Positions 21,491 through 29,659 of a stretch of 64,000 nucleotides of DNA are shown one piece after another. Made by a program: the position numbers and the translations under genes. The stretch is from Candidatus Zixiibacteriota bacterium (lineage in GTDB: Bacteria; Zixibacteria; MSB-5A5; GN15; FEB-12): positions 251,849-315,848 of the forward strand of contig JBFLZR010000001.1 of NCBI GenBank assembly GCA_040756055.1. Reading direction: 5' to 3'. Below the pieces are notes generated by a model. That model was given only the letters and a program-made list of their open reading frames with translations. It ran no database searches and was not told where the DNA came from. Within the stretch, counting starts at the first letter, position 1. Every line of letters begins with the position of its first letter.

Positions 21491-21724
21491 ATTTCCCCTA
21501 ATAAACTGGCATTTCGACACTGCGTCAACAGCAAAGACGGCCTGACCATCAGCTCTGTCTACACCAAAAAAGACGCTGGAATTCGGCCTTTGGAGACTTA
21601 TTATTACGGAGGCGCTATCTGGGTTGTGTCAGGTCTTGGCCAGACTAAGTCGGGGTGTGACCTGAGGCTCAAACAAAGACCGTCAGATGACATCCCCGAC
21701 ACCATCGGGGACAGCATCTGACGG
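21491..21724 (+). pseudogene. Possible C-terminal coding remnant running into the repeat array
   Basis: An open plus-strand frame without an ATG runs from after a TAA at 21488 to a TGA at 21722. Its first ~40 codons look like real coding sequence (for example SKDGLTISSVYTKKDAGI and ETYYYGGAIW); the rest is the first repeat unit read through. It may be the tail of a gene whose 5' part has been replaced or deleted. I do not recognise the family, and chance is a real alternative. Confidence 0.25.
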
Positions 21725-22159
21725 AACGAGACATCATCCCGTTGTGTCAGGTCTTGGCCCGACGAAGTCCGGGGTGTGACCTGACACGGAAGCAGCAGCG
21801 CCAATCCCGTTGTGTCAGGTCTTGGCCCGGCGAGTTCGGGGTAGCGGCCTGAGGCTCGAACAAAGACCGTCAGATGACATCCCCGGCACCATCGGGGACA
21901 GCATCTGACGGAACGAGACATAATCCCGTTGTGTCAGGTCTTGGCCCGACGAAGTCGGGGTGCGACCTGACACGGAAGCAGCAGAGCCAATCCCATTGTG
22001 TCAGGTCTTGGCCCGGCGAGTTCGGGGTAGCGGCCTGAGGCTCAAACAAAGACCGTCAGATGACATCCCCGACACCATCGGGGACAACATCTGACGGAAC
22101 GAGACATAATCCCGTTGTGTCAGGTCTTGGCCCGACGAAGTCGGGGTGTGACCTGACAC
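21624..22159. repeat. Tandem array of three ~186-bp units, each with three palindromes
   Basis: Units begin at 21624, 21810 and 21996; the third is cut short at 22159. Each holds element A1 (TTGTGTCAGGTC...), palindrome B and element A2. B (21680-21724, 21867-21911, 22053-22097) has perfect 10-base arms CCGTCAGATG/CATCTGACGG and inner arms CCCCGA/TCGGGG. A2 has perfect arms GTGTCAGGTC/GACCTGACAC (for example 21931-21940 with 21964-21973). A1 shares the left half of A2 but has a diverged right half. Units are almost identical, so amplification is recent. No coding sequence is credible inside. Confidence 0.93.
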
Positions 22160-22912: not shown

Positions 22913-25267
22913 TTACTTCACAAGCAGCATTTTCTTGGTTTCGACAAAGTCAGCGGCCTCCAGACGATACAGATAAACACCGCTGGCTGCGTTGCTGCCG
23001 TCCCACGACACCGTATGGCTACCTGCTTCGACAGGCCCGTTAACCAGTGTCGTTACCTTCTGTCCAATTATGTTGTAGACCTCTAGCTTAACGTTGCACG
23101 CCTGTGGTACTGAGAAGGCAATATCCGTTGACGGATTGAAGGGATTGGGGCAGTTCTGCTGGAGTTGGAATGCATTAGGCAAACTACCCGTCTGCCCTAT
23201 ATGGTATGCGATATCTATCGTGCTAAGCGGTATGACACCAGCATCTATGACCCGACTGTGATTCAGTTCATTACAGATGAACAGAACGAGATTGTGATCA
23301 CCTTCAGGGTCATCAATAAGGTTATCACAGAAAGTTATCGCTTGTGACACTGTCGCACCATCTTCACTTATTACGTCTTGCTGGAAGATATTACCGGCCG
23401 CGACATTGAATAGTAATGCCATAAGGTTTTGCTGGGCGCGGGTGCGAACACCCACGTCAGCCTTGAGATTCATCAGGTCGGATGCCAGGGTCAGTTTGTC
23501 AATGCAGTCATCCGTAATCGGTGGTTCATAAAGCACGACTTGATTTATTTCGTTCGAATTGAAGTGACCTGCAATCAGATCGAGATAGCCGCAGAGTTGG
23601 TCCGCCGTGAGTTCTGCACTCCCAGCCCCGCCGAGAGCCACAGCAACTTCGTGCTTCCAGTATCCGATCCCCCTCGGGCGCCCACTCTGTTCGAGGCAGA
23701 CCAAATTGAAGTCAACAGTAACTTTATCAGCGCACCCAACGGAAAGGGGTATTTCCTGCTCACCAGCCTCGTATCCAAGTGGAGTGACAATGGACAGTAC
23801 ATAACTGCGGTTGTTAATGACACTCTCAAAATCAAAATATCCCTCCTGGGAAGTCAACTGAGAAGCGGCGAGGTTACCATCGGCGTCATACAAATCCATT
23901 GTTACGCCGGCCAACGCTGAACCGGTCTCAGGACAATTTGCGAAGACATATCCGGATACTTTGCTTTCCGCAAAGGAAAATACGTACGCTTTACCGGGGC
24001 CACTATTGTTATCGGCGCGGGCCCCTACAATCATCTCGGGCCAACCGTCACCATCAACATCACCGGCATCTGAAACCGAAAGACCGAACTCGTTATAAAG
24101 TGACGCTCCCTCGCCATCCAACGTGTGAAGTATTGAGCCGTCAGCGCCCGAGTAGATATAGACCCGTCCCAGCCATGACTCGTAACCATCAGCGCCAATA
24201 GCGACATCATCATAGCCATCATGATTAACGTCGCCGGCACCCGAGACACATATTCCGAACTGATCTTGTGTGTTCTCCCCCTTGAGAATGCGATCCGCAT
24301 CTCCAGCTTGAATATTTAAGGGAAATGGGCCGACCCGACCATAGAATATATATGCACGTCCGGCATAATAGCCCTCCGAACTGTGTCGGTAGGCACCAAC
24401 GACGAAATCCATTAAACCGTCACCGTTTAGATCGCCGGCGTCGGACACCGAATATCCGAATAGATCCCCAATCGCCTCTCCCGTGAACACATATAATAGA
24501 CTGCCATCTTGACCTGAGTAGATATTTGCCACACCTTTGGCCGACCAAACCGCCGAGCCGACCAGCAGGTCATCGTATCCATCTCCATTTACGTCTCCAG
24601 CACCGGACACGGAGAAACCAAGGCACTGCCCAGTCTGCCCGATGAATTCATACAGCAGGGAATCATCGTGGCCGGAATAAACGTACGCTTTGCCCGCAAG
24701 ATTTCCGCCCTCGTCGTTACTATTCGCTCCTATGATAATATCATCGTAGCCATCATCGTTAACATCGCCAGCATCTGATATGTCATACATACCAAAACGG
24801 TCGCCCCAGGCTTCACCGTAAAACTTGTACAAAAGAGTAAAATCAGCGCCGGAATAGACATATGCCATACCGTTTCCCCAAGCGCTGGTACCAGTAGCTT
24901 GAGAAGCACCGACGAGAAGATCATCATGGCCGTCACCGTTAACATCGCCGGCACCGGACACTGTTGTGCCAAAGAAATCATAGTCCGACTCGCCAGTAAA
25001 CTCGTGTAGTAACGAGCCATCACGTCCCGAGTAGACATACGCCTTACCAGTACAGGAGCCCAGCTCATCGTTCCAAGGTGCCCCCACGATGAAATCGTCA
25101 TAGCCATCAGCGTTAACATCTCCGGCGTCACAAACGTGCATCCCGAACGCATCACCCGTCGCTTCACCTTCGAAGGTGTACAAGGGCGGGCACCCTTCTG
25201 CTTCGACGACACTTACTAGGAGCAGAACCGATGTCATTATTGACAGCACAAAACTCCACAATCTCAT
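22913..25267 (-). CDS. Secreted FG-GAP beta-propeller protein with type IX-like sorting domain
   Basis: A 784-residue exported protein. After a signal peptide (about residues 1-23) come seven FG-GAP repeats (about 28-430), each with a calcium-loop motif such as AGDVNGDGYDDLLVG, predicting one seven-bladed propeller like that of integrin alpha. Next is an SdrD/Cna-B-like domain (SGYVFANCPETGSALAGVTM). It is followed by an unnamed ~170-residue region opening with GIGYWKHE. The C-terminal ~85 residues, with NCPNPFNPSTDIAFSVP, YNIIGQKV and GVYLYRLEA, form a Por/type IX secretion-type sorting domain. It is probably a cell-surface or released protein. AAGGAGA lies before the ATG at 25267; it follows the Lon-like protease gene by 100 bases. 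Confidence 0.9.
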   Translation of the reverse strand: MRLWSFVLSIMTSVLLLVSVVEAEGCPPLYTFEGEATGDAFGMHVCDAGDVNADGYDDFIVGAPWNDELGSCTGKAYVYSGRDGSLLHEFTGESDYDFFGTTVSGAGDVNGDGHDDLLVGASQATGTSAWGNGMAYVYSGADFTLLYKFYGEAWGDRFGMYDISDAGDVNDDGYDDIIIGANSNDEGGNLAGKAYVYSGHDDSLLYEFIGQTGQCLGFSVSGAGDVNGDGYDDLLVGSAVWSAKGVANIYSGQDGSLLYVFTGEAIGDLFGYSVSDAGDLNGDGLMDFVVGAYRHSSEGYYAGRAYIFYGRVGPFPLNIQAGDADRILKGENTQDQFGICVSGAGDVNHDGYDDVAIGADGYESWLGRVYIYSGADGSILHTLDGEGASLYNEFGLSVSDAGDVDGDGWPEMIVGARADNNSGPGKAYVFSFAESKVSGYVFANCPETGSALAGVTMDLYDADGNLAASQLTSQEGYFDFESVINNRSYVLSIVTPLGYEAGEQEIPLSVGCADKVTVDFNLVCLEQSGRPRGIGYWKHEVAVALGGAGSAELTADQLCGYLDLIAGHFNSNEINQVVLYEPPITDDCIDKLTLASDLMNLKADVGVRTRAQQNLMALLFNVAAGNIFQQDVISEDGATVSQAITFCDNLIDDPEGDHNLVLFICNELNHSRVIDAGVIPLSTIDIAYHIGQTGSLPNAFQLQQNCPNPFNPSTDIAFSVPQACNVKLEVYNIIGQKVTTLVNGPVEAGSHTVSWDGSNAASGVYLYRLEAADFVETKKMLLVK

Positions 25268-25367
25268 ATTGTACTTCTCCTTTGTGTTACTTTTGCAGGG
25301 TTAGTTAATTGTTTACTTGCTGCTTCTGCAGTTGTAATAGCAGCTAAAGAGAAGATTTGTGGAAAAA

Positions 25368-27626
25368 TTAGCGGGATTTTTCGGACGCCCGGAGCTGGCC
25401 CTCGGTCACCCAGCCGGAATCCGTCCAGTACTTGACAGCATCACGCAGGTTTGTGAAATATTCTGTTGTATCGTGCATAGGCTCGAGCAACCCGAGATCG
25501 ACAAGTCTCTCTCTGGCACGCATGAATGGGTCACGCTTCTTACATTCGATCGCGCGCAGACTGCTATCGAGACAATATGTCAGCGGCTCGTCGCCATCGA
25601 CGTTCTCTTCCACTATGACGTCCAGTAAGTTTGAGCCCAATAATTTTATCTCACTGACGCCGTTATACTGGTTGTGCATTTTTCGGCAATAGTCAGTAGG
25701 CGGAAAGACCATGTACAGCGATTGATTGCCTCTGCCAACACTTGAAGTATCATATGCCTCATCTTCGTACGGAGGCGCTGTCCCATACGCCGAATCAGGA
25801 GCGAGAACAAAAAGACTCGCACTTCCCTCGGGGTTGTTAATACCGTAGAAAATTAACTGTTCGCACACACCAGATCCGTCCGAACTGAGTTTTGGCCAGC
25901 TTGTAGCGGTGCCGGCGTCCACATACCAGCCATTCAGGTCCCCCTCAGAAGTCCAAAACTTGATATGGGTTCTGGCAGGATGTGATCGCGTAAGACTGGT
26001 GAGTATAAGTGTGTCATCTGAAAAACGGATTACTTTCAACTCATGAGAGTTGTATGTCTGGTTTCTTGTGGAGTCTGCGATGCAGTGGTGGAGTATAACG
26101 GCATCTCGTGTGAACAACATTTCTCCCCTGAAGTCATAGGCATATAGCATGGAGCTACTGCCGCATACGGCATTCGACTGCGGTAAAACATATACTTCAT
26201 TCACACCGTCCCCGTTCATATCATCTACCACCCACCTCTGGCAATCCACAGTGTCACAACCGTATTCAACTTCCCACAGCCGTGTGGAGTCGGCGTTCAA
26301 AGCTTCAAACCCTTTCTTGGTCGGATGTACATACTTCGGATTATCGTCAAACCCCACCCACGCTTTCGGATAGATAAGGCTGATCAACAGGTATGCCAGC
26401 GCCAGAAGTATCGGCACCTGGATATGAGTCGCGCGGCTGTAGCGCGCGGCCTTGCGGGCAACATACTGACCCATGCACACTTTTTCGGAGCGAAGGACAT
26501 TTTTGTCATCCAAAACATCGGTCAGGCGATCATACGGCACCAGATGGAGCTTACGGCTCGGATATTCACTCTCAAGTTGTCCGAGGACAATCTTCGCGTT
26601 ATCAAGATTATCCTCCGGCAGCACCAGAAACCGGATATGCGAAAAGAAGGCGCGCGATATCTTCTCACGGAGCGTCTCCTCGTTAACCGGCGTAATATTA
26701 CCGGTCTCGCCAACCCCGCCCGTAAAAGCCACCTCCTGCGATATGAGGCGCTCATGACGCATCACTTCGGTCTTCATCAGACCCGCGAAAGTAACCGCCG
26801 CCACCCCAAGACCGATTGAATCACCCGTAAACGTCTGGCTGCTGTCAGCAATACTGAAATGCCCGTGGTAGTATCTGCTTGCCTTGTCTTTGTAACCATG
26901 AATTTCAAAATACTCCCGGAGAGCCGCGAGAGCGTTGTAGCTGCTTCCCACAAAGGGATCATCGGGCGTCTTTATCTGATTCTCAAATGTGATTTCATCA
27001 GTCGTGGCTGATTTGCCAAATAGTTCCACACTTGCCCGCAGGGCGCGAAGTCGGCCATGACCGTGGCCGCGCTCACCCGATGTCTCCACGAACAGACAAT
27101 AGGCCTGATCATGACGAAGTTCTTCAGACAGAATAGTCCAATGCGAGTGGATTTGTTCGAGAGTGCCGACCACTGGAGAACCGGCCTGCTTAAGATACTG
27201 GCAGAGTATGGATAGTCCCTCACGGTCTCGAAGACTGTCCAGTTCTTCCGGCAGCATGCCCCCCGATGATCGTTCGGTCAATACCGAAACCGCCTTTGCG
27301 AACTCGCCGACATAGCAGTACACCTGAGCCAGACGAAATCCGATAATCTTGCTCTGATCGGGAAGGTCGAGCAGTTCCGTGACCCGCACGATTTGATCCA
27401 GCTTGTCTACGGGGAGGTCCGCCAGCGAGGCATCCGTGATAAACGTCTGGACAAATTGCCGCAGTTCCAGACGGTAGCTTTCAAACTGGGGTTTATCGAT
27501 AAGGGGATGATTCTCCGCAGCGAAGTCCATTAAATGCAATAGCCTGATATCATCGGCGACATTAGCCGCGAGACGGGCCTTGAGCCGTTCGAACTCTCGC
27601 GCGAATTGTACCGGGGATATGCTCAT
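25368..27626 (-). CDS. Membrane-anchored Lon-like (S16) serine protease with C-terminal FG-GAP-like domain
   Basis: About 752 residues. The N-terminal ~230 are helical. Residues about 262-380 form a Lon-type S16 protease domain: GDSIGLGVAAV gives catalytic Ser270, LREKISRAF gives Lys322, and VAFTGGVGETGNITPV and RFLVLPEDNLDNA match Lon strands. No AAA+ ATPase is attached. A single membrane helix follows at about 401-422 (PILLALAYLLISLIYP), then a ~330-residue beta-rich region with VDDMNGDGVNEVYVLP, an FG-GAP/VCBS-type calcium loop. The expected topology is protease inside, propeller-like sensor outside. ATG 27626 overlaps the TGA of the upstream zinc-finger gene (ATGA), which fixes the start; the frame continues 27 codons upstream but would overlap that gene by 85 bases. 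The substrate is unknown. Confidence 0.82.
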   Translation of the reverse strand: MSISPVQFAREFERLKARLAANVADDIRLLHLMDFAAENHPLIDKPQFESYRLELRQFVQTFITDASLADLPVDKLDQIVRVTELLDLPDQSKIIGFRLAQVYCYVGEFAKAVSVLTERSSGGMLPEELDSLRDREGLSILCQYLKQAGSPVVGTLEQIHSHWTILSEELRHDQAYCLFVETSGERGHGHGRLRALRASVELFGKSATTDEITFENQIKTPDDPFVGSSYNALAALREYFEIHGYKDKASRYYHGHFSIADSSQTFTGDSIGLGVAAVTFAGLMKTEVMRHERLISQEVAFTGGVGETGNITPVNEETLREKISRAFFSHIRFLVLPEDNLDNAKIVLGQLESEYPSRKLHLVPYDRLTDVLDDKNVLRSEKVCMGQYVARKAARYSRATHIQVPILLALAYLLISLIYPKAWVGFDDNPKYVHPTKKGFEALNADSTRLWEVEYGCDTVDCQRWVVDDMNGDGVNEVYVLPQSNAVCGSSSMLYAYDFRGEMLFTRDAVILHHCIADSTRNQTYNSHELKVIRFSDDTLILTSLTRSHPARTHIKFWTSEGDLNGWYVDAGTATSWPKLSSDGSGVCEQLIFYGINNPEGSASLFVLAPDSAYGTAPPYEDEAYDTSSVGRGNQSLYMVFPPTDYCRKMHNQYNGVSEIKLLGSNLLDVIVEENVDGDEPLTYCLDSSLRAIECKKRDPFMRARERLVDLGLLEPMHDTTEYFTNLRDAVKYWTDSGWVTEGQLRASEKSR

Positions 27627-28474
27627 TGATGAAACAGCCTGAAGATGATTTTGCGCGCCCTGTCTTTCAGGGTAATCTTGCGTCCCATCTGCGGCCCAGC
27701 CCGCCACGTGTCAACAACACCATCAGCCATCATCACCACCCGCACCGGATCAAAGTCGGGTCTGCCATCCAATTGGAGTATCTCGATTGTGAATTTCTTG
27801 CCTACCGTTTTTCCCTCGAATGTGATCTTTATCCGATCATCGTTTTCAGTCGTAAGAATAGTCTCTTTTTCGTAAATCGTTTTATCCGGGTCAAAATCCA
27901 GTGCTTCGAGGGTGAAAACAGCATCGGGAAGGTGCAGCTGCCATGCCGAATCGCCCGCGCGGTCAACCATCCCCGGCTCGATTTCGGCGTGCCCCTGTTC
28001 ATCAGTCACCACCGAAAGTTCTCTTTCGGGTACATCGACCATGATATGCGCGTAAAGTGAAGAATCCTCGGCAATAACCTGCAGGTAATCTTTGGACAAC
28101 TCGGTATCCCGCATCAACCTCAGGACCACATCGGGCGACTCGCAGTAGAGCGTTTTCAGATGTTCCAATTTTGGTTTGGCCGCTTTTCCATCGGCAGCCA
28201 ACTGACCAGCAAGAACGGAGGCGGCGTGCAGCTCCCTGAGAGTTATGACTTTAGGCCCAAAGGCTTGCCACGACAGTTTCTTTTTCATCGACTCGGCCGC
28301 CATTGGAATTCCGCGTTTCTCGGATTCACGTAGGGCGCTGACTTCCAGCCGAATATCATCAGCCAATTCGCGGCAAAACTCGCACGTTTCGAGATGCCGG
28401 GCAATCTGCTGTCTGCCCCCGTTTGATAGCTCGCCGAGGATATATTGCTTTATTTCATCCTTGTTCGGGTGCAA
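27623..28474 (-). CDS. Zinc-finger (zf-HC2) anti-sigma-like protein
   Basis: A 283-residue protein. The N-terminus is a putative anti-sigma zinc finger: IARHLETCEFCREL (about residues 24-37) gives H-x3-C-x2-C, with a helical lead-in typical of zf-HC2. Unlike classical anti-sigma factors it has no membrane helix. The middle is helical (about 75-145) and the C-terminal ~130 residues look beta-rich. The start is TTG at 28474 with GGAAGGGA well placed before it, 12 bases after the stop of the upstream gene. Its stop overlaps the start of the Lon-like protease gene. A role in binding the upstream gene product is inferred from order only. Confidence 0.75.
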   Translation of the reverse strand: MHPNKDEIKQYILGELSNGGRQQIARHLETCEFCRELADDIRLEVSALRESEKRGIPMAAESMKKKLSWQAFGPKVITLRELHAASVLAGQLAADGKAAKPKLEHLKTLYCESPDVVLRLMRDTELSKDYLQVIAEDSSLYAHIMVDVPERELSVVTDEQGHAEIEPGMVDRAGDSAWQLHLPDAVFTLEALDFDPDKTIYEKETILTTENDDRIKITFEGKTVGKKFTIEILQLDGRPDFDPVRVVMMADGVVDTWRAGPQMGRKITLKDRARKIIFRLFHQ

Positions 28475-28486
28475 AATATCCCTTCC

Positions 28487-29560
28487 TTACTCCACCACAT
28501 TCCAATAGACACCAAATTGGCGAATTATCGGGTTTTTTCTCAACCTTGACGAAAAGTCTTCCTTGGTGCGATCTATGACGGTTTCGAAGACATACTTGAA
28601 GTCTTCCAGGTATCTCTCAACATACTGCGGCGGCATAACTTCCCGAAAATAGTCCGGTATGACGGCGGGGTCGCCATCATGGCCGAAATCATCGAGATAC
28701 CGGCCGCAAGCGGCCAGAAACAGCCCGGAATCTTCGCCCCTGATCCGAGTTTTCGTCACAAACGGCCGGATGACCTGATCATCGATGTATTTCATGGTTT
28801 CCAACTTAATAGCAGACACTGCGTCTCTTATGGCGCTCGTTTGCGGGCCGGGAACGGCCATCGGGCCGAACTGCGGCAATTGAAGAAAAGCCACATTGAC
28901 GGCAACAACGGCTTTCAGAAGGTCGGTTCGGCCTATGGCAGCGCAGTAAGCCGGGGCCTGCGCGAGGCGCTCGAAGATCTTGCGGCACCAGTCGGTCCGG
29001 CTATTGCTTCCAGCGAAGGCCTCTTCGGCAATAATCCTGAGTTCTTCGTACGGGATTGTCGGCTTCGAGAAGTCGGGCTTGCCGGCCTTCAAATGGATGA
29101 ATTCCTCATATCCCCTCATGAAAGTCACGTAATGGTCTTCTCTTAAAATATCCTTGAATCGCCGTTTAAGTGTCTCAACCTGCGGGTTGGCCTGCTTTTT
29201 GAGCCGGCTTATTTCCTGATGCGCAAATCCCTTCAGAAGACTCTCAAACAGCATCCAGAGCCTTTCCGGCTCACACTGTTCAAAATCGCGGACGCCGCTG
29301 GACTGATAGAACTCGAAAATGACACTAAATGGCCGTTGCGGCTTGGTTTGGAAGAGACTTCCGAGGATATCTACCGCAAGGTCGTCCACGGCGCTCTCTT
29401 CGCTGTACAAATCGAGAGGCAGACGATACCCTTTCTGACGCAGATAAATCAGATATCCCCTGATAAAAACTAGTGTACTGTCAAAGATGTCTGAGAATCT
29501 TTTTTGATCTGGACTTACAAGGAAATTCTTGAGCCTTAAAGGTGCTTCCCTACCCATCAA
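28487..29560 (-). CDS. Unknown protein heading the Lon-like operon; weak sigma-region-2 resemblance
   Basis: A 357-residue, mainly helical soluble protein that I do not recognise. Near residues 20-70 the segment FSDIFDSTLVFIRGYLIYLR followed by DDLAVDILGSLF recalls the spacing of ECF sigma region 2 (a helix of aromatic and basic residues, then a DL-x-DI-x2-LF helix), with an insertion between. LKRRFKDILRED (about 129-140) is strongly basic. There is no obvious region 4. It is the first gene of a three-gene run with a zf-HC2 protein and a Lon-like membrane protease, an order common for sigma/anti-sigma modules. The sigma-like reading is a hypothesis; an enzyme or scaffold is equally possible. 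Confidence 0.6.
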   Translation of the reverse strand: MMGREAPLRLKNFLVSPDQKRFSDIFDSTLVFIRGYLIYLRQKGYRLPLDLYSEESAVDDLAVDILGSLFQTKPQRPFSVIFEFYQSSGVRDFEQCEPERLWMLFESLLKGFAHQEISRLKKQANPQVETLKRRFKDILREDHYVTFMRGYEEFIHLKAGKPDFSKPTIPYEELRIIAEEAFAGSNSRTDWCRKIFERLAQAPAYCAAIGRTDLLKAVVAVNVAFLQLPQFGPMAVPGPQTSAIRDAVSAIKLETMKYIDDQVIRPFVTKTRIRGEDSGLFLAACGRYLDDFGHDGDPAVIPDYFREVMPPQYVERYLEDFKYVFETVIDRTKEDFSSRLRKNPIIRQFGVYWNVVE

Positions 29561-29659
29561 GTTTAGATGCCAGTCACAATGCTATTTACAGTCTGTTGAA
29601 ATATAGCTCGTTTGGTCCTTAATGTCAAGGTTGTCAACGGGTACGCCGGACTGGGGTCG

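Follow-up and report, generated by a model that had tools for sequence, protein, structure and literature searches.

What do three tightly packed genes of a Candidatus Zixiibacteriota bacterium control, if they encode, in order, a helical protein of no familiar kind, a zinc-finger protein and a membrane protease? The three genes and their neighbours were read from a 64-kb stretch of DNA (the window, contig C1; positions are those of the window unless a locus is named) in a genome of 3.3 Mb, and a first-pass annotation of the window had likened them to a sigma/anti-sigma/protease module. Altogether, our results support, with a probability of roughly 0.55, a model whereby genes 1, 2 and 3, a fourth gene behind them and a bipartite promoter-like motif in the spacer between genes 3 and 4 form a self-contained surface-signalling system with one target, built on the logic of FecI/FecR/FecA. 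The motif before gene 4 is the strongest evidence for transcriptional control by the module. The earlier interpretation is thereby supported in part: it was right in outline and is unproven for gene 1, and it had missed both the fourth gene and the motif. The elements of the system are as follows.

29600..29628, minus strand: predicted sigma-70-type promoter of the gene 1-2-3 operon, TTGACA-N17-TATATT, the best site of the region (11/12)
28487..29560, minus strand: gene 1, 357 amino acids, all-helical with one beta hairpin; candidate transcription factor of the module
27623..28474, minus strand: gene 2, 283 amino acids, soluble, with an N-terminal zf-HC2/zinc anti-sigma (ZAS) domain; candidate inhibitor of gene 1 and substrate of gene 3
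25368..27626, minus strand: gene 3, 752 amino acids, receptor-type protease
Parts of gene 3 (residues): helical N-terminus 1-168; S16 domain about 174-382 (S270, K322); membrane helix about 402-420; FG-GAP-like domain about 430-752
25336..25365, minus strand: bipartite motif, TTTCCACAAA-N11-GCTGCTATT, 2 nucleotides past the gene 3 stop and 70 nucleotides before gene 4; candidate target site of gene 1
22913..25267, minus strand: gene 4, 784 amino acids, with a signal peptide, FG-GAP repeats and a C-terminal sorting tail (Por_Secre_tail/FlgD_ig; Pfam); candidate output

The packing of genes 1, 2 and 3 is exactly as first described, with a gap of 12 bases between genes 1 and 2 and an ATGA overlap at the junction of genes 2 and 3. 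That they make up a module is borne out among relatives: a profile search of locus surroundings in Zixibacteria found the same order and strand kept in 38 loci, a count that takes in gene 1 copies found by profile alone (E about 1e-10 to 1e-18), and this conservation is far above chance. Across loci, genes 1 and 2 are typically 5-60 bases apart while genes 2 and 3 mostly touch or overlap; exceptions to the order are contig ends or fragments, broken copies, and one locus (L039) that has genes 1 and 2 without gene 3. Gene 1 relatives are patchily distributed: they occur in 38 of the 132 genomes of the phylum and, within the genus, in one of three further genomes searched, and those among GTDB genomes are mostly labelled Candidatus Zixiibacteriota. 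A search for plasmid relatives found none, and no description of the three-gene module was found in the open-licence literature.

The motif in the spacer between genes 3 and 4 has the consensus TTTC[TC][AG]CAAA-N11-GNNNCTATT and is present 0-147 bases past the gene 3 stop in 32 of the 35 loci where the end of gene 3 is intact. A Gibbs search in which gaps of 11-19 were allowed reached 19.3 bits and placed all sites at a gap of 11, and 12 shuffled sets gave 11.1-11.9 bits; when the second box was allowed any gap from 4 to 29, every one of the 30 non-redundant sites chose 11. Ten motif loci outside the model-building set score 14-21 bits. In the window genome the single exact match is the one at the operon, and 10 of the 17 exact matches in 132 genomes are likewise at the operon, the 7 elsewhere being at or below the level of the reversed control pattern. 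We therefore rejected the idea that the motif marks a genome-wide regulon, since matches away from the operon equal the control. Because the window genome encodes 39 proteins with the same sorting tail as gene 4 and holds one motif, the motif is no promoter shared by tailed proteins in general. An RNA element was also considered and rejected, as RNAalifold predicted no structure and Rfam gave no meaningful match. In the second box, G (93%) and C (100%) occupy fixed positions upstream of TATT, and T6 of a -10 element is not conserved. Going by a weak purine preference about 11-13 nucleotides past the centre of this box, the first box would lie near -35 and the second near -10.

What lies behind the motif is, in nearly all loci, a large exported gene on the same strand, usually 60-250 bases past gene 3. 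The next gene is on the same strand in 23 of 27 loci; judged by crude rules, a sorting tail or dockerin pattern occurs within 500 bases in 17 of the 27 next genes, compared with 4 of 191 background pairs, and a signal-like N-terminus in 22 of 27, compared with 42 of 191. Among 25 gene 4 proteins, we found Por_Secre_tail in 14, FlgD_ig in 14 and dockerin in 6, while the remaining domains are diverse (FG-GAP, lactonase-type and WD40-like propellers, laminin G and others) and mean column identity is 14%. At L141, a tail remnant alone is left of gene 4 behind the motif. In L101 (7645-7948) and L146 (1374-1596), the motif stands behind gene 3 and the opposite strand encodes a two-component system in the place of gene 4.

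The two promoter regions of the locus differ in kind. Of 35 regions upstream of gene 1, 19 hold a sigma-70 site scoring at least 10/12, compared with 0.9 in shuffles, and none of 23 spacers between genes 3 and 4 holds one; the operon therefore looks constitutive and gene 4 specially controlled. Moreover, the motif covaries with gene 1: position 6 of the first box is A where gene 1 belongs to the main clade and G where it belongs to the distant clade. Paralogous operons within one genome follow their own clade (in G130, A at L102 and G at L104 and L139; in G011, A at L144 and G at L095), an indication that the site is recognised by something the operon itself encodes. G130 holds four paralogous operon copies in all, three with distinct motif variants and the remaining one, L103, without a clear motif.

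Gene 2 is, as the first-pass annotation stated, a soluble protein with an HxxxCxxC zinc finger. Its reading frame opens with TTG, relatives start with MHP, and its zinc ligands follow the pattern H2-x24-H27-x3-C31-x2-C34. H27, C31 and C34 are invariant and H2 is nearly so, and the spacing was compared in 44 relatives; distant members have, as first ligand, a Cys about 24 residues upstream. The spacing H2-H27-C31-C34 is identical to that of RslA, the zinc ligands of which are H25, H50, C54 and C57 (PMC2877774), and the best matches of gene 2 among PDB profiles are RsiW, RslA, DdvA and ChrR. The zf-HC2 score of the window protein falls slightly under the Pfam cut-off. The second part of the protein is also conserved (e.g., A93-A94, T157-D158 and G161) and rich in predicted strand-like motifs, family searches found no likeness between it and known families, and hydropathy gave no membrane segment in gene 2. 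In some genomes, cassettes of a canonical extracytoplasmic function (ECF) sigma factor and a zinc-finger protein, with a large TPR-like protein where visible, lie near the Lon operon (L048 9906-13775, L107 3-2078, L108 14543-15749 and L056 2374-6603); their zinc modules resemble that of gene 2 (hhalign 92% over the finger region).

Gene 3 proved to be the membrane S16 Lon-like protease it had been taken for. It scores 17 bits against Pfam Lon_C, under the cut-off of 21.1; its AlphaFold2 model (predicted local distance difference test, pLDDT, 88.7) retrieved with Foldseek Lon proteolytic domains as all top 50 matches in the PDB (E 2e-10 to 1e-8, probability 1.0, template modelling score to the target up to 0.83). 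In an alignment with A. fulgidus Lon (1z0e), S270 and K322 fall on its catalytic residues, Ser and Lys respectively; the dyad is invariant in 27 relatives with identity down to 24%, for which reason a degenerate protease was rejected, and family searches matched no AAA+ domain in any member. The single strongly hydrophobic segment, at about 402-420, is preceded by RKAARYSR, and the positive-inside rule therefore predicts that the protease domain lies inside and the C-terminal half, which has FG-GAP-like repeats, outside. Five other genomes of the class have the same outside domain and membrane helix joined to the core of a histidine kinase (HATPase_c E 1e-12 to 5e-13; outside-domain profile E 1e-14 to 3e-33), with the gene 3-type domain C-terminal to the core in each of these proteins:

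L131, 3727-5805: histidine kinase with gene 3-type outside domain
L132, 1616-3667: the same architecture
L133, 214-2292: the same architecture
L134, 87-2195: the same architecture
L135, 6142-7710: the same architecture

This swap onto histidine kinases is the best evidence for the FG-GAP-like domain as the sensor or signal input, and for gene 3 as a receptor with proteolysis as its output. The motif was not found behind the kinase versions. Exported tailed or dockerin proteins adjoin the kinase loci L131 and L133 at least. A defence role was considered and rejected, the PADLOC matches being weak and restricted to the region of the Lon dyad.

Gene 1 stands by itself. The frame begins with TTG at 29560, and the adjacent ATG at 29557 is the likelier start. 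Because its AlphaFold2 model has a predicted template modelling score (pTM) of 0.43, the relative placement of the parts is uncertain, though the model is confident within parts (pLDDT 87). The protein has no family match in Pfam or NCBIfam, none to a helix-turn-helix family, and none in a PDB profile search; with Foldseek, the model matched nothing in the PDB or BFVD at E <= 0.001, and in particular no enzyme fold. The sigma region 2-like segment proposed in the first-pass annotation did not hold up. We compared gene 1, by hhalign with full and split profiles and reversed profiles as control, with a profile built on 15 ECF sigma factors that these genomes encode, and obtained probabilities below 1%, equal to the reversed controls, whereas divergent ECF groups detect each other at 98-99%. 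Neither hhalign nor Foldseek detected sigma-70/ECF regions 2 and 4, and with Pfam, NCBIfam, PDB profiles, hhalign and Foldseek all negative, a sigma-factor assignment of gene 1 on grounds of homology was rejected; the stretch DDLAVDIL resembles sigma region 2.2 by eye only and is without statistical backing. Judged by these comparisons, gene 1 is a new protein family. As for its activity, we tentatively suggest that it might represent a class of specificity factor for transcription initiation, without detectable kinship in sequence or fold to sigma-70 or sigma-54, controlled by a ZAS-type inhibitor and a transmembrane receptor protease and directed to a single surface-protein promoter, TTTCYACAAA-N15-CTATT; this possibility, to which the dedicated bipartite motif lends indirect support, we hold at clearly less than even odds.

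In our model of the system, the gene 1-2-3 operon would be expressed from an ordinary sigma-70 promoter, and gene 2, as a zinc anti-sigma-like protein, would keep gene 1 inactive in the cytoplasm. Gene 3 would sit in the inner membrane with the Lon-type protease inside and the FG-GAP-like sensor outside, such that an outside signal at the sensor would activate the protease and lead to cleavage of gene 2. Released gene 1 would then guide RNA polymerase to the motif behind gene 3 and switch on gene 4, the product of which, an exported variable surface protein, would be the output. Of the sigma/anti-sigma/protease logic proposed earlier, the module, the ZAS domain and the Lon-fold protease thus stand, and the sigma homology of gene 1 does not. 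Neither of the two findings named in the first-pass annotation as speaking against it, a known enzyme fold for gene 1 or a gene order lost in relatives, was made.

Several observations weigh against this model. No sigma factor or DNA-binding domain detectably resembles gene 1 in sequence or fold, and zinc anti-sigma-like domains are also found in proteins with other partners. A good motif is missing in three intact loci (L103, L053 and L137), L101 and L146, both of one genus, have the motif and no gene 4, and L100 breaks the rule that position 6 follows the clade. The match between motif and clade could also partly reflect common descent of operon and site. In the closest alternative, the circuit is the same and gene 1 is an ordinary DNA-binding activator: sitting on TTTCYACAAA at about -35, it would bring the sigma-70 holoenzyme to a weak -10, the TATTnn within CTATT. 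The lack of sigma homology and the T-A-T of the second box, as in TATAAT, speak for such an activator; however, the fixed G and C upstream of TATT together with the invariant spacing suggest specific reading of the second box, the -10 lacks a conserved last T and no helix-turn-helix family matches gene 1, and on balance we regard this alternative as rather doubtful. That another factor of the cell, for example an ECF factor, reads the motif, with gene 1 as an adaptor or protease substrate and the zinc domain of gene 2 serving assembly only, appears unlikely: although the window genome has 18 matches to sigma-70 region 2 and canonical ECF/zinc-finger cassettes lie near the operon in some genomes (L048, L107 and L108), the motif is unique in the genome and found only with the operon, and its variants track the clade of the operon rather than the genome.

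Two further explanations give up transcriptional control as the main function. Gene 3 might be a quality-control or processing protease for the export of gene 4, with genes 1 and 2 as accessories and regulation secondary, which would fit with a membrane-anchored protease and an always exported gene 4; yet the charges before the helix place the protease inside, mature gene 4 being outside, the gene 4 sequence is very different between loci, and the zinc anti-sigma domain and the dedicated promoter are left unexplained, making this explanation very improbable. Even harder to credit is the proposal that the motif is a recombination or insertion site for the exchange of gene 4 cargoes. The strong variation of gene 4 domains would be expected from such exchange, as would the persistence of the motif where there is no gene 4 or no more than its tail (L101, L146 and L141), but no second copy of the motif lies behind gene 4 in the window, there is one exact copy per genome, the boxes are at promoter spacing, and the module includes no recombinase.

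Several known systems come close to the proposed one. FecI-FecR-FecA resembles it in that a sigma-70-driven regulator operon, which is not autoregulated, is followed directly by the single target promoter, which drives a surface protein (PMC9249621). In contrast to FecR, which spans the membrane and is cut by RseP, gene 2 is a soluble ZAS protein, not of the FecR type, and the membrane sensor itself is the presumed protease; moreover, gene 1 has no sequence relationship to factors of the FecI type and gene 4 is not a TonB-dependent receptor, no such domain being among the families listed. With RsrA, RslA, ChrR and RsiW, gene 2 shares an N-terminal zinc module; it differs from these zinc anti-sigma factors in its C-terminal part, in lacking a membrane segment and in having a partner that is not a recognisable sigma factor. 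The use of Lon in the place of S2P or DegS, which the first-pass annotation had pointed out, is supported by the Lon fold of gene 3 and is not unprecedented. CalpL, CalpT and CalpS are a type III CRISPR-associated Lon protease, an anti-sigma factor and an ECF sigma factor (PMC11417357), and the two systems have in common an AAA+-less Lon-fold protease as a switch, an anti-sigma-like protein and a transcription factor (PMC11417357). Whereas the input of CalpL is an intracellular cyclic nucleotide that acts via a SAVED domain, gene 3 has no SAVED/CARF sensor, its sensor being the FG-GAP-like C-terminal half outside; PADLOC CRISPR-Lon models match gene 3 around the dyad only (E 0.01-0.07), gene 1 is no ECF factor, and here the three genes are followed by an exported gene dedicated to output. 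LonA and LonB differ from gene 3 in having an AAA+ domain. Finally, gene 3 has its FG-GAP-like outside domain and its membrane helix in common with the kinases of L131-L135, which differ in having a cytoplasmic HATPase_c instead of Lon and in lacking genes 1 and 2 and the motif.

We view the system as a variation on the familiar logic of anti-sigma factors and surface signalling, built around a candidate new class of protein. If our model is correct, a Lon-type protease would have come to act as the switch of an anti-sigma circuit a second time and independently, here in a one-protein receptor with the sensor outside and the protease inside rather than in a cyclic-nucleotide effector. It would also be a compact outside-to-promoter system with one target, possibly with a new family of promoter-specificity factors. 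The sensor common to the protease and kinase versions shows that signalling inputs are exchanged between two biochemical outputs. Thanks to the dedicated promoter, a short DNA fragment and purified proteins are enough for a direct test of the role of gene 1.

Downstream of gene 4, at 21583-22141 of the window, we note three tandem copies of a 186-nucleotide unit that are 69-100% identical and contain short palindromic elements, e.g., CCGTCAGATG...CATCTGACGG.

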